Below are positions 38,274-47,390 of a DNA stretch of 64,000 nucleotides, in pieces. The notes under the pieces are model-generated. The model worked only from the letters and a program-made list of their open reading frames with translations. It was not told where the DNA came from and did no database searches. A program made the position numbers and the translations under genes. Within the stretch, counting starts at the first letter, position 1. The number at the start of each line of letters is the position of its first letter. This DNA is from Armatimonadota bacterium (GTDB taxonomy: Bacteria; Armatimonadota; Fimbriimonadia; Fimbriimonadales; Fimbriimonadaceae): the NCBI GenBank assembly GCA_037138755.1, contig JBAXHT010000002.1, positions 310,001 through 374,000 on the forward strand. Direction: 5' to 3'.

Positions 38274-38947
38274 GGGCTTGGCCTGGTCTGCTTGCTTTGA
38301 CCCTCTTAGGCTGCGCTAAATCGCCCCTAAACCCTGATGCCGACGCGACGCGTCTCATTTTCCGAATGTCGGTAGACGGCCAAGTCCGCTCCGACTACGT
38401 GTACATCTTTGCGATTCGGACGAGCACCGACCTCAACCCGACCACCGACGGCCCTCTTCCGGTTGTGGCGTTTCCTACCAATAACGGCTTTCTGACAGGC
38501 AATGCCACTTACTTTGTCCGCTGGACACCCGAGACGCGCCAGTACACTTTGTATAAGTTTACGGATTCATCCTTATCGTTTTTCAATGCGGTCGGTATCC
38601 CACTCAACTCGCTCGACGTCTCGACCGGATCAAAGACGCTCGGCTTCGAGCTTTCTTTGAACCAGTTAGCCGATACGGTGGCGGATGCCAAGGCGCTTCA
38701 GTCGATCCAAGTCAATCTGCTGACCATGAACCGGCTTCTCGACCCGTCGAGCGGATCGAGTCGGATCATTGACAGCCTGGGGAACAATCGGAACATCGCG
38801 GAGATCAACTCATTCGTTCGGATTCCGCTAGCCACATCGCAGGTGTACGACAACTCACGCTTTGCTTTCCTTGAGCCAAGCACGCCAGACACAAACGACC
38901 CAGATCTCGACATCCGGGACTGGAGCATTGAGGTTCGCAACCAGTGA
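38270..38947 (+). CDS. Putative lipoprotein (225 aa)
   Basis: The start is TTG 38270, overlapping the zinc-ribbon stop (TTGA). It gives LRAWPGLLALTLLGCAKSP, a signal peptide with the lipobox L-L-G-C. The mature part is beta-rich (TRLIFRMSVDGQVRSDYVYIFAIRTS, YFVRWTPETRQYTLYKF). No other start gives a signal peptide. It resembles secreted beta-sheet proteins of unknown function. The rfbD start overlaps its stop (GTGA). Confidence 0.65.
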   Translation: MRAWPGLLALTLLGCAKSPLNPDADATRLIFRMSVDGQVRSDYVYIFAIRTSTDLNPTTDGPLPVVAFPTNNGFLTGNATYFVRWTPETRQYTLYKFTDSSLSFFNAVGIPLNSLDVSTGSKTLGFELSLNQLADTVADAKALQSIQVNLLTMNRLLDPSSGSSRIIDSLGNNRNIAEINSFVRIPLATSQVYDNSRFAFLEPSTPDTNDPDLDIRDWSIEVRNQ

Positions 38948-39819
38948 AAGTCACGGTTCTTGGCTCGAACGGAATGCTCGGTACCGACGTGGTGAAGGTG
39001 CTTGAGGCATTGGGTCATGAGGTTCGCGCTTTGACCCGCGCCGATATCGATCTCACAAAGCCGGCGACGATTAACGACTGCAAATGGCTTGCGAAGAAGA
39101 ACGCCGACTGGGTGGTGAACTGCATCGGTTACACCGCGGTTGATAAAGCTGAGGAAGAGCCGGAAGTAGCGTTTGACGTCAATGAAGAGGGGATTTTGAA
39201 CTTGTGTGGCAAGCTCAACGGGGGACCTCGATTGTTACACGTCTCTACAGATTTTGTATTTGATGGCTCGGCTTCGGCTCCTTATGTCGAAACCGACGAG
39301 ACGAATCCCTTGGGGATTTACGGACAATCTAAGCTCGCGGGAGAGCACTACGCAGAGGCGATGCTTGATGATCCGGTGATCTTCCGCACAAGCTGGCTTT
39401 TTGGACCCAGCGGAAAGAGCTTTCCTTTGACGATGATAAACGCTCACAATGCTGGGCGCCAACTTCGGGTGATCGGAGACCAGTTCGGGTGTCCGACGTA
39501 CACTGTTGACTTGGCGACCGCAATCGCTTCGGCGATAGAAGGGGGGTTGCCTTCAGGGGTTTACCATGCTTGTGGTAGCGAGTCGATGAGCTGGCACGAG
39601 TTCGCGGAGCGTGTGCTGTCGGTTTATCGAGACGAATCGGTTTCGGTTGAAAAGATAGGCACGGCGGACTATCCCACTCCTGCCCAGCGACCGGCTTACT
39701 CGGTGATGAGTAACGCCAAGCTAGCCGGGGCCGGGATCAATCCTTGGCGGTCGACTGAGTCGGCGGTTGAAGAGTTTGTTGAGCGGTTGCGTCGAGCAGG
39801 TAAGATTTCGAGACTATGA
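38944..39819 (+). CDS. rfbD: dTDP-4-dehydrorhamnose reductase
   Basis: A 291-residue short-chain reductase for the last step of dTDP-L-rhamnose synthesis. It shows the GSNGMLGTDVVKVL nucleotide-binding loop, NCIGYTAVDKAEEEPEVAFDVN, HVSTDFVFDG, the catalytic YGQSK, and RTSWLFGPSGKSF. It starts with GTG and overlaps both neighbours by 4 bases. Other dTDP-rhamnose genes are not nearby. Confidence 0.9.
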   Translation: MKVTVLGSNGMLGTDVVKVLEALGHEVRALTRADIDLTKPATINDCKWLAKKNADWVVNCIGYTAVDKAEEEPEVAFDVNEEGILNLCGKLNGGPRLLHVSTDFVFDGSASAPYVETDETNPLGIYGQSKLAGEHYAEAMLDDPVIFRTSWLFGPSGKSFPLTMINAHNAGRQLRVIGDQFGCPTYTVDLATAIASAIEGGLPSGVYHACGSESMSWHEFAERVLSVYRDESVSVEKIGTADYPTPAQRPAYSVMSNAKLAGAGINPWRSTESAVEEFVERLRRAGKISRL

Positions 39820-40262
39820 GCGGAATCTTCGCGTTTTCGATGTTGTTAGCTGGTCAATCATCAGTGACCGCGACCCTTTCGATCCCAGTTTACGATTTTG
39901 ACTACAAGACAAGCGCGGTCAAGGGAGGGGTACCCACAAAGCTCCCGACTGGATTCAAAGAAGTGAAACCAGGCACGGGGAAAATCGAATCCAAAAGCGG
40001 CTCGATCTCGTTCACGCTAGCCAAGTCGGGTCAGCCGATCCCGACTCCGCAACGAAACCCCGAAGCTAAGAAAGGTGAAGAGTGGACGACTATTCGCCTC
40101 GTGAAGTGGATCGGTTGGCGCAACCTCAAGGGGAATCAGGAATTCTATAAGCTCACTTGGAGCAGCTACCGGGTTAACGCAGTTCTGACCGCGAAAACGA
40201 AGAATGATCTGCCCGAACTACGCAAGGCGCTCGGGGTCATGTGCGATAACTTGACGTTCTGA
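39816..40262 (+). CDS. Secreted hypothetical protein (148 aa), intact copy
   Basis: A protein with a short signal-like start (MSGIFAFSMLLAGQSSVTA). The body contains SVYDFDYKT-like beta strands and ends SSYRVNAVLTAKTKNDLPELRKALGVMCDNLTF. Its 3' end overlaps the convergent acyltransferase gene by 45 bases, and a decayed copy lies 1.4 kb away at 41415-41649. Function unknown. Confidence 0.6.
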   Translation: MSGIFAFSMLLAGQSSVTATLSIPVYDFDYKTSAVKGGVPTKLPTGFKEVKPGTGKIESKSGSISFTLAKSGQPIPTPQRNPEAKKGEEWTTIRLVKWIGWRNLKGNQEFYKLTWSSYRVNAVLTAKTKNDLPELRKALGVMCDNLTF

Positions 40263-41282
40263 GCGAGTCGCAACTAACCGTTTTCCTAGTTTGATACCCG
40301 GCTGTTCAATGAAACGGTAGGTAAGAGCTGAAACCAGGACAGTAGACGCGAATAGTGCAAACGTAAAGTATGCCGTATTGCTCATAACGCCAGTTGGTCG
40401 CAGCCAAATCAGTACCACTCCGTGAACGAGATAGATCGAGTAGCTGATCGTGCCCAAATACACAAACAAAGGAGAAACCTTTGTGTCGTTTGCAGAAAGC
40501 GCGACGATGAATCCGCCTACGGCAACCAGCATGGTCGGGTAGTGGCTCAATGTCGCCAGTGAGTTAGCGTTGATGGAGATTGACGTGAACCACTGGAGCG
40601 ATATTGAAGACACTGCCAGGGCTGTTATCATCACAATCTGGCGCTTCGTGATTTCGGCAGCGCGGTAGGAGTAGTACGCACAGCCGAGGAACATGAAGGC
40701 GAAGCCAATCAGTCGATCTCCACCTAACGACCGACCTGTCACCCATGATGCTAGATTGAGGAGGATTAGTAGTACTGAGATGGTCGGGCTGAGCTTGTAC
40801 AATTTTGAGCTCCTATTAAGAGCAAACAGAGTCCCAAGAAGACAGTAGAACACGAGTTCATAACCTAGCGTCCAGTAGGCACCCCGTAAGCTAGGGAATC
40901 CAAGAAACTCTTGCACCATTGTTAGGTTCAGAACTGCACTCAAAACAAAGGATTTAGGACTTAACCAAGGTGTCGCCCCGATCATAAAGCCAGTTATTGA
41001 AACGGCCAGGCTAACAATAAACAGTGGGTACATCCTAAACACTCGACCGATCGCAAAGTCCTTTACGGTTTTGACTCTCTTGAGGCTAAAGGGAATCACG
41101 AATCCGCTTATCATGAAGAAGAGATAGACTCCCCCCGCGCCGAGATGGATGAATTGGCTGATTGATTTGAATGTGGCTAAAGAGGCAATCTCGATTGCGT
41201 GGGCCACAAGCACTGCAATTGCGGCGAAGCCGCGTGCCGCATCTATGCCCTTGTATCGACTTTGGTCGGTTGCCTGGGCCAT
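40218..41282 (-). CDS. Acyltransferase-3 family membrane protein
   Basis: A 354-residue protein with about ten membrane helices. It starts YKGIDAARGFAAIAVLVAHA, the acyltransferase-3 signature with the catalytic histidine, then FFMISGFVIPFSL and RVFRMYPLF. The family O-acylates sugars of surface polysaccharide or peptidoglycan. TATACT lies 8 bases before the ATG at 41282. The last 13 or so residues (ERQVIAHDPERLA) are the antisense of the 3' end of the convergent 148-residue gene. Confidence 0.9.
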   Translation of the reverse strand: MAQATDQSRYKGIDAARGFAAIAVLVAHAIEIASLATFKSISQFIHLGAGGVYLFFMISGFVIPFSLKRVKTVKDFAIGRVFRMYPLFIVSLAVSITGFMIGATPWLSPKSFVLSAVLNLTMVQEFLGFPSLRGAYWTLGYELVFYCLLGTLFALNRSSKLYKLSPTISVLLILLNLASWVTGRSLGGDRLIGFAFMFLGCAYYSYRAAEITKRQIVMITALAVSSISLQWFTSISINANSLATLSHYPTMLVAVGGFIVALSANDTKVSPLFVYLGTISYSIYLVHGVVLIWLRPTGVMSNTAYFTFALFASTVLVSALTYRFIEQPGIKLGKRLVATRSERQVIAHDPERLA

Positions 41283-41414
41283 TAGTTGCGAGTATATCCC
41301 AGGGAGTTGCGACACTCCTCGAGCGCAGCTATTCTCTTGCTGGGTGATTTGCCTGATTCATCTGCCGGAATATGAATCTTAGTGTAACGTCTGGGTCAGA
41401 GCTTCATGAACTAG

Positions 41415-41649
41415 GGCGGGTTCTCAGGCGGCCATGCGTCAAGAACCCCGAGGCTAAGTAGGGTTAGAAACGGACCGCTGTCCACTTTGAGAATTCGACT
41501 GGATGGCAAAACCTCGAGAGAGACTCAGAATTTCGCAAGGTCACTTGTAGCAGCAACCAGGCAATGCGGTTCTGAGCGCGAAATCCAAGTCGGATCTCTA
41601 TGAACTACGCAAGGCGCTCGAGGTCATGTGCAACAACTTGACGTTCTAA
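41415..41649 (+). pseudogene. Decayed copy of the 148-residue secreted-protein gene
   Basis: This aligns with 40030-40262. With one frameshift it reads EFRKVTCSSNQ ... VLSAKSKSDLYELRKALEVMCNNLTF, against EFYKLTWSSYR ... VLTAKTKNDLPELRKALGVMCDNLTF in the intact gene. The 3' ~50 bases are almost identical, while upstream stops and the frameshift mark it as dead. Its 5' half is missing or unrecognisable. The end overlaps the last codons of the membrane-protein gene on the other strand. Confidence 0.8.
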
Positions 41650-42480
41650 AAACTCGCCGAAAAGCATCGTTCTCTGCCGGGCAGCACCTTCGAACAAGAA
41701 ATAGATCATGGGTGCAACCGTGAGCCCAATTGGTATCAATTCGATGCCTGGCATCTGCGCCAGCTTGGAAAGATACACCATGCCAATCTGCAATAGGCAG
41801 ACAATGGCAAAGGTCGGCCAAAGCCCCCTTGTTGTTAAGCGAGTAGGGCCAACCACCGGCCAATCCTCAATCTTTGGGATACCTGCCAGAACAGTCTGCC
41901 GTCGATTTTCTGACGTGAGCATAGGAGCAAGTGCCTCTCGAATATCCCTCCCTGGTTGCCACAAAAAGAGCTGAATCCCGTCCCTAGACGTTATGCACGC
42001 CACGGGTTGAACTCTGTTTTCGATCATGACCGAGCCAAATTCGATCCCAGTCCCAATGTGCTCTATCAACAAACGGTGCTTTGCATCGATCCGAAAGCAG
42101 TCTGTACCAGACTGCTTTAAACATCCGTAACCAACCCAGCCCTTCTGTTGCCCCAATAGCATGGTGTTCTGCATACCGAAAGAGTAGAAGAGAGGCACAC
42201 CTTCGTCACAGGACTGCACGACATCCCAGGTATGGCGTTCGCCCCGATGTAAAGCGTAGAGCAGAGCGCCAAAAGTACAGATTACAAGGGGGAGTCCTAT
42301 TGCGCCTCTGGAATCGCCCTTTGGAATCTGTTGAATGATGAAACCAGAAATCAACGATAGGATGATAAATGCCACCATCCCATATGCCAGATACCTCAGG
42401 GAACCCGGTGCAGTAAACATAACTAGCGCGGCCCGCTCTTCTCTTGTCTTCCAGCTGACACGAGCACTGCAAAATTTCAT
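41605..42480 (-). CDS. Membrane protein of unknown function (291 aa)
   Basis: Start at ATG 42480, overlapping the SGNH hydrolase stop by 4 bases (ATGA). Two N-terminal helices (YLAYGMVAFIILSLISGFII, LPLVICTFGALLYAL) are followed by a soluble domain and two C-terminal helices (TFAIVCLLQIGMVYL, LIPIGLTVAPMIYFLF). No family is recognised. Its C-terminal tail, ERQVVAHDLERLA, is the same as that of the unrelated acyltransferase 1.4 kb away and is antisense to the pseudogene. Confidence 0.6.
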   Translation of the reverse strand: MKFCSARVSWKTREERAALVMFTAPGSLRYLAYGMVAFIILSLISGFIIQQIPKGDSRGAIGLPLVICTFGALLYALHRGERHTWDVVQSCDEGVPLFYSFGMQNTMLLGQQKGWVGYGCLKQSGTDCFRIDAKHRLLIEHIGTGIEFGSVMIENRVQPVACITSRDGIQLFLWQPGRDIREALAPMLTSENRRQTVLAGIPKIEDWPVVGPTRLTTRGLWPTFAIVCLLQIGMVYLSKLAQMPGIELIPIGLTVAPMIYFLFEGAARQRTMLFGEFLERQVVAHDLERLA

Positions 42481-43106
42481 TTCAAATTCGGCGCAAGAAT
42501 CTTCGTCCAGATTGCATAGCCTTTGGCGTTCATATGGAGCATATCGCCGAGGAATAGGGACTCGTCGGGGCGGCCGTCGGCGTTGAGCATTGCATCCCAA
42601 CAAGAGACGAAACCTGTTCGAGGCTGAGTTGCCAGAAAGTCTTTGATCAGGTGGTTGCCATAGGTGTATTTGGCCCTTAGGTGCCAACGCGCTGGACTAG
42701 GCTTCATTGCGCAGTAGAGGATATCGGTTCCGGGAAGCTCCTTACGAGTAAGGTCAAAGAACTTCTTAAAGTTCTCGAAGACTGCGTACGCCGGAGTGGT
42801 TCCGCCAGCGAGGTCATTTTCGCCGCAGTAAATCACGATTTGTTTGGGTTTGTAGGCGGTGAAGACCTTGTAGTCGCGGATCAAATTTCCGAGTCCAGAG
42901 CCACCGTAGGCGCGATTAAAAACGCCTTTTCCTGGAAAAGCACTTTCCATCGTCTTCCAATTTGTGAACGTCGAAGAACCGATAAAGAGGATCCTGCCGG
43001 AGCCTGGCGGGTTCTTTTGATCGAGGGCAGCCCAACGATCGAGATCTGCTTGATAGACATAGGACTTCTGGCTTAGGAAGGTACAGATAAGCAGCGCGGT
43101 ATTCAT
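42477..43106 (-). CDS. SGNH/GDSL-type hydrolase
   Basis: A 209-residue esterase-like protein. The blocks are RILFIGSSTFTNW (nucleophile Ser), FNRAYGGSGLGNLI (Gly), IYCGENDLAGG (Asn) and FLGDMLHMNAKGYAIW (Asp-His). This matches deacetylases and esterases that act on acylated sugars or lipids. A weak N-terminal hydrophobic stretch may export it. With the acyltransferase-3 gene just upstream it would form an acylation/deacylation pair for surface glycans; this is inferred. Confidence 0.85.
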   Translation of the reverse strand: MNTALLICTFLSQKSYVYQADLDRWAALDQKNPPGSGRILFIGSSTFTNWKTMESAFPGKGVFNRAYGGSGLGNLIRDYKVFTAYKPKQIVIYCGENDLAGGTTPAYAVFENFKKFFDLTRKELPGTDILYCAMKPSPARWHLRAKYTYGNHLIKDFLATQPRTGFVSCWDAMLNADGRPDESLFLGDMLHMNAKGYAIWTKILAPNLK

Positions 43107-43131
43107 CGAACTTCACGTACGAAAACTTGAA

Positions 43132-44175
43132 TCAATCAGCACGAGGCTGGGCAAACTTCTTTCCGAGTTCTAGTCCGGTTTTCTCGATCAGAGTGTAGCC
43201 AAGAAAACCAGCCAAGATCGATAAGCCAACCTGAATCGACACCTTAGCATATGGATTCTCACCACCTGACACGAAGTGAAGAACCAGGCCGTGGAGAAGG
43301 TAAATCGAGTAGCTCCAAACTCCTAGCTTGTTCAGCCACATTGGATACTTGAGCTCCTTGAACTTAGTCAGTAACCAGAACACGACAAATCCAGATAGAG
43401 CGCTGATAATGGCGCAGGCCTTTGTTGGCTGGATATCTTGCGGGGAGAGTCGATGATCACGATAGTTAAGAAGTGCTGAGATTGTGACCACAGCAAAGTT
43501 AGCGACCAACCAGGCGGCTAGCTCCTGTTGAGAGATGTCACCGGCTTTTGCGCGATAGAACAGGAGTCCACCCAGAATCGAAGTGAACACTGCGATGGCT
43601 CCCGCTGGGAATCTAATGTGTAGAAGGACTGGAAAAATGACACCGACGGCTAAAAACAAAGCAAGCAAGACACCGACGATCAGTCGAGTGTTACTGAGAA
43701 ATCCAATTGCAAACGCGATGGATATCCCGATGTAAAGAAGCATTTCAACGCCCAAGGTCCAAGAAACGGCGCTTGTCGACGGAATTCCCACGAAGTCCTG
43801 AAGAAGCGACAAGTTGCCAATGAGATGCTTGAGATTCATAGGATTGTACTGAGTGTGCATGTTAACGCCAAGCAGTATCAAAACACTCACTAGCACCACT
43901 TGAAAGATGTAAAGCGGGCCGAGACGCCAAAACCGACCAACCCAAAATGATTTCAAGCTCTTTCGGCGCTCTAGGCTGTGAGGCACAATGTAGCCGCTCA
44001 CGAAGAAGAAGAGCACAACCCCAAATCGTCCAGGACTCCACAGCGTCGAAAACAAGTCAGGAGCCCACGCAAAGGCTCCCCACACAGAGTGTTGCAAGAC
44101 GACCGCTATTGAAGCTATTCCACGCGCTGCATCCAGAAAAGCCCATCTTTCAGCAGTTGCGGTAGGGGCGGTCAT
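43132..44175 (-). CDS. Acyltransferase-3 family membrane protein
   Basis: A 347-residue polytopic acyltransferase with AFLDAARGIASIAVVLQHSVWG at the start (catalytic His), FFFVSGYIVPHSLERRKS and RFWRLGPLYIF. TAAACT (44184-44189) is 8 bases before the ATG and lies between the rRNA terminator and the gene, so it has its own leaderless promoter. The SGNH hydrolase gene follows 25 bases downstream. Confidence 0.92.
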   Translation of the reverse strand: MTAPTATAERWAFLDAARGIASIAVVLQHSVWGAFAWAPDLFSTLWSPGRFGVVLFFFVSGYIVPHSLERRKSLKSFWVGRFWRLGPLYIFQVVLVSVLILLGVNMHTQYNPMNLKHLIGNLSLLQDFVGIPSTSAVSWTLGVEMLLYIGISIAFAIGFLSNTRLIVGVLLALFLAVGVIFPVLLHIRFPAGAIAVFTSILGGLLFYRAKAGDISQQELAAWLVANFAVVTISALLNYRDHRLSPQDIQPTKACAIISALSGFVVFWLLTKFKELKYPMWLNKLGVWSYSIYLLHGLVLHFVSGGENPYAKVSIQVGLSILAGFLGYTLIEKTGLELGKKFAQPRAD

Positions 44176-44192
44176 TGAAGAAGAGTTTACAC

Positions 44193-44217
44193 AAAAAAAG
44201 ACTCCCTTTCGGGAGCC
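44193..44217 (-). terminator. Rho-independent terminator of the 23S-5S operon
   Basis: On the minus strand GGCTCCC-GAAA-GGGAGTC is followed directly by seven T. It lies just downstream of 5S rRNA and only about 18 bases before the start of the acyltransferase gene. Confidence 0.9.
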
Positions 44218-44230
44218 TTCTTACATATTA

Positions 44231-44348
44231 ACCGGGCGACAAGCCTTTCTCGCGGCACCCTGCGGTGCAACTACCTCAGCCAAGACGTAGCTTAACTGCT
44301 GTGTTCGGAATGGGAACAGGTGTTTCCTACGCTTTATGACCACCCGGA
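44231..44348 (-). rRNA. rrf: 5S ribosomal RNA
   Basis: About 118 bases on the minus strand. It carries the conserved segment CCTGTTCCCATTCCGAACACAGCAGTTAAGC, and its ends pair (CCGGGTGG with TCGCCCGG). It follows 23S after a ~90-base spacer and precedes the terminator. Confidence 0.95.
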
Positions 44349-44388
44349 AAGTGGTAGGGATATTCGATTGTAATAACCGAAGCCCTTT

Positions 44389-44440
44389 GAGAGCCGCACA
44401 TGAAACAAGAAGCACATCGAGTAACTTTATAAGAGCTGCG
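44389..44440 (-). other. 3' arm of the 23S processing stalk
   Basis: Bases 44389-44440 are nearly the reverse complement of 47391-47450 (for example CTCGATGTGCTTCTTGTTTC against CTCGATGCGCTTCTTGTTTC in the right-hand arm). The two arms extend the 23S end helix by more than 50 bp and would be cut by RNase III. Confidence 0.75.

Positions 44441-47390
<2,950 letters not shown>

Follow-up and report, generated by a model that had tools for sequence, protein, structure and literature searches.

A duplicated gene end read in antisense as the shared tail of two unrelated membrane proteins in a Fimbriimonas-like bacterium

Two unrelated membrane proteins encoded near each other in a Fimbriimonas-like bacterium have almost identical final 13 residues, which raises the questions of where this shared C-terminus came from and whether it is kept for its sequence. 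The locus was analyzed in the window, i.e., the whole 64,000-nucleotide stretch of genome G000, and compared with G001 and G016, its two closest relatives and members of the same genus. On the plus strand, an RmlD-type dTDP-4-dehydrorhamnose reductase gene (38944..39819) is the conserved upstream neighbor of a gene encoding a 148-residue protein of unknown function (39816..40262). The latter gene occurs in a few Fimbriimonas-related genomes; its product shows 65-67% identity in G001 and G016 and 39-44% in three further genomes, and the Pfam and NCBIfam families searched gave no match. The minus strand carries acyltransferase A (365 residues, 40218..41315), an orphan predicted membrane protein (291 residues, 41605..42480), a GDSL-like lipase (PF13472, 42477..43106), a second acyltransferase (43132-44175) and the 5S and 23S rRNA genes (44231-47388). 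Acyltransferase A is a member of the Acyl_transf_3 family (PF01757), matching it over residues 22-334 with 106.7 bits at a curated Pfam cut-off of 31, and its tail lies outside this domain.

The 3′ half of the 148-residue gene is present twice. The sequence-only reading had proposed such a repeat at 40140-40262 and 41527-41649; the repeat itself stands, and its extent has to be redrawn, as the significant alignment joins 40056..40260 of the intact gene to 41444..41647 (both plus strand), a duplicated segment of about 207 nt. The alignment score of 191 exceeds the maximum of 39 obtained in 200 shuffles, ruling out chance similarity, and roughly 29% of the aligned sites differ between the copies, ruling out an assembly artefact. 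The second copy, partial and decayed, is interrupted in its sense frame by two TAG codons and also carries frameshifts. Neither upstream of the aligned part (p 0.23) nor past the stop codon of the 148-residue gene (p 0.57) was significant homology found between the copies, and a genome-wide DNA search returned no copies of the gene end besides these two. Acyltransferase A is encoded in the space separating the copies, and the orphan membrane protein in that separating the second copy from the GDSL lipase gene.

Both of these minus-strand genes extend past the sense stop and continue through the 148-residue gene in antisense, in the codon-aligned frame, until each is ended by a TAG opposite the same CTA leucine codon. 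At 40218..40262 (minus strand), acyltransferase A and the intact gene form a convergent 45-nt overlap of two opposite-strand coding genes at their 3′ ends; at 41605..41649 (minus strand), the membrane protein overlaps the decayed copy over a further 45 nt, so that the sense partner of the second pair is dead. The resulting ends are S-ERQVIAHDPERLA in acyltransferase A and L-ERQVVAHDLERLA in the membrane protein. That a homologous TAG terminates two unrelated proteins with near-identical tails had been noticed from the letters alone, with a base-by-base alignment suggested as the check; the alignment, at approximately 71% overall identity, recovers both antisense stops and both tails exactly as they had been described.

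The two relatives indicate in which direction this arrangement arose. In G001 and G016 the 148-residue gene is single, the repeat of its end is absent, and it directly faces the GDSL lipase gene, with neither tailed gene at the locus. The sense C-terminus is nonetheless there, reading ELRKALGVMCDNLTF in the window gene, ALRKGLGVLCDNLTF in G001 and ELRKALGVMCDNLTF in G016, and both the gene and this C-terminus therefore predate the overlap. The antisense frame can also be read in the relatives (SERQIIAEDAESLS and LERQVVAHDAEGLAELKNV, each closed by a stop codon), although it serves no gene there; the leucine codon of G016 is CTC, and the antisense stop opposite it is hence missing. An ancestral origin of the tails, with the antisense gene as the secondary arrival, is ruled out by the conservation of the sense C-terminus in relatives that lack both tailed genes at this place. 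Since relatives with the same sense C-terminus carry neither tailed gene there, the comparison of sequences offers good support for the view that the tail first existed as an unread antisense frame, its peptide being a by-product of an older sense gene. The nearest homologues of acyltransferase A (at most 33% identical, none a close orthologue) are in line with this, ending within about 5 to 20 residues of the same GK(R/K) in short, unrelated sequences. No orthologue of either tailed protein free of the overlap was found. The proposal that the tails derive from the antisense of a neighboring gene is well supported by the relatives. As a separate observation, an in-frame TAA interrupts the 148-residue gene of G016 close to its N-terminus (L003, 1495-1600); the gene is either decaying there or restarted at an internal ATG.

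We read the locus, with a probability of about 0.8, as a pair of ordinary convergent (tail-to-tail) overlaps at two copies of one gene. Its starting point would be the order seen in G001 and G016, namely rmlD followed by a 148-residue gene facing the GDSL lipase gene, which we infer to be ancestral. In a tree of seven sequences the intact and decayed copies are sisters, with G001 and G016 outside (FastTree 0.995; IQ-TREE 98), and the decayed branch accounts for nearly all change, with 34 unique sites to the other's 4; because the copies are sisters, the duplication of the 3′ half most likely arose in the lineage of the window, after its split from the two relatives. Incoming genes with no stop of their own before the end of the 148-residue gene, as can be read from the sequence, would then have been translated into its antisense as far as the TAG, the original stop of each having presumably been lost. 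The second sense copy would have decayed afterward, leaving the part read by the membrane protein nearly unchanged.

The kind of event is already known, stop-codon movement being an accepted and common source of convergent overlaps (PMC4161906, PMC2174442). As in the known convergent pairs produced by stop loss or movement (PMC4161906; PMC2174442), the genes of the window lie tail to tail, and one reads on through the antisense of its partner up to the following in-frame stop; unlike them, the gene end here is overlapped twice, by two proteins unrelated to each other, following a partial duplication, and one of the sense copies is dead. Among convergent overlaps of at least 5 nt, the three phases occur at frequencies of 49, 33 and 18%, the codon-aligned phase of the window (123:321) being the one at 33% (PMC2174442). 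The sum of squares of these published frequencies gives a chance of about 0.38 that two independent overlaps share a phase, and no special mechanism is therefore needed to explain why the frame is the same. A second parallel is provided by the de novo C-termini formed through stop-codon loss in yeast and Drosophila (PMC4494051), which likewise are short new C-terminal peptides drawn from sequence previously unread in that frame, although the sequence recruited in the window is the antisense of a coding gene rather than non-coding DNA, and the setting is bacterial.

How the gene end came to be doubled admits two accounts, both held tentatively. The slightly stronger, which we still place below even odds, is recombination inside the 148-residue gene, by which a donor 3′ half already overlapped by the acyltransferase gene was integrated. 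A full (hybrid) copy would have come to lie beside the acyltransferase, with the resident 3′ half displaced to the side of the resident membrane protein; the two overlaps would then have arisen independently in two strains and been brought together later. The anatomy fits, with a full copy proximal, cargo in the middle and a 3′-only copy distal, and the homology would end at the stop codon because the neighbors differ. Two sites within the overlap, at the TAA stop and at the C of an AAC/GAC codon, are common to the decayed copy and G016 and are not shared by the intact copy, and the interval from the 148-residue gene to the rRNA operon varies in gene content among relatives. Against this, the sister relationship of the copies excludes both relatives, and no donor sequence was found.

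The same sister relationship favors the other account, local duplication of an already overlapped end, in which one tail came first and was then fused in-frame to the other gene; so does the identity of frame and stop codon in both overlaps, although, at a chance of about 0.38, a shared frame is not improbable. This account must further explain why the homology breaks off precisely where the sense stop codon lies and takes in nothing of the body of either protein, a junction that has to coincide with the gene end, and we regard it as possible though somewhat less so than recombination.

Whether the tail is kept can be approached through the divergence of the dead copy. Differences between the decayed and intact copies number 4/45 in the overlap and 53/162 elsewhere (Fisher p 0.0012). 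Changes unique to the decayed copy, counted only at positions that are identical in the intact copy, G001 and G016, affect 2 of 34 such positions within the overlap, against 31 of 108 in the remainder (p 0.0049). Because the 45 nt that are read have changed much less than the rest of the dead copy, the tail of the membrane protein is probably translated and maintained as coding sequence. Most of the changes in the overlap are non-synonymous in the tail frame (S/L, I/V and P/L differ), and the conserved stretch is short, with four changes; selection on the tail peptide itself is weakly supported by this pattern, since the changes are few and not mainly synonymous. Constraint solely on an open frame that reaches the TAG, or chance, could possibly account for the conservation.

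That the 3′ end of the dead copy was conserved for a reason unconnected with the tail, such as a transcription terminator or gene conversion by its intact counterpart, appears unlikely. Convergent genes require termination close to their junction, which speaks for a terminator; neither overlap, however, has a terminator-like site, and the number of such sites in the region is the same as in shuffled sequences. Recent conversion is opposed by the copies still differing where the decayed one matches G016. Under our preferred reading of two ordinary convergent overlaps, the tails most probably persist because they are tolerated and not through selection for a function, given that tails in the acyltransferase family vary freely in length and sequence. 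The strongest functional claim is that the antisense-derived tail has become a functional C-terminal element of both proteins, for example a cytoplasmic contact or a sorting signal that they have in common, and that selection preserved it once the sense gene had died in one copy; we consider this very improbable.

The locus offers a clean natural example of a single DNA segment that became the end of two unrelated proteins, the dead sense copy serving as an internal control. It therefore allows constraint on the new antisense-derived tail to be told apart from constraint on the gene it came from, a distinction that overlapping genes seldom permit.

The most likely start of the orphan membrane protein is the ATG at 42480. 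This codon overlaps the GDSL lipase stop in an ATGA and yields 291 residues rather than 360; the TTG start chosen by the ORF tool (42687) falls within the GDSL gene. Of the six reading frames, that of the membrane protein shows the best codon usage. Searches of 291 genomes of the phylum, viral contigs, a genome collection and plasmids gave no usable homologue (one marginal match, E 0.007, is not trusted), and no Pfam or NCBIfam family scored above cut-off. A single-sequence structure model is poor (mean pLDDT 43.9) and suggests helical ends with a β-rich middle. The ATGA junction couples this orphan gene to the GDSL lipase gene. More broadly, the interval between the rmlD/148-residue pair and the rRNA operon (40262-44231 in the window; L002 and L003 in the relatives) differs in content: G016 has the GDSL lipase gene only, G001 the GDSL gene and a small membrane protein, and the window two acyltransferases, the GDSL gene and the orphan, and this interval beside the rRNA operon may be a hot spot of gene gain.
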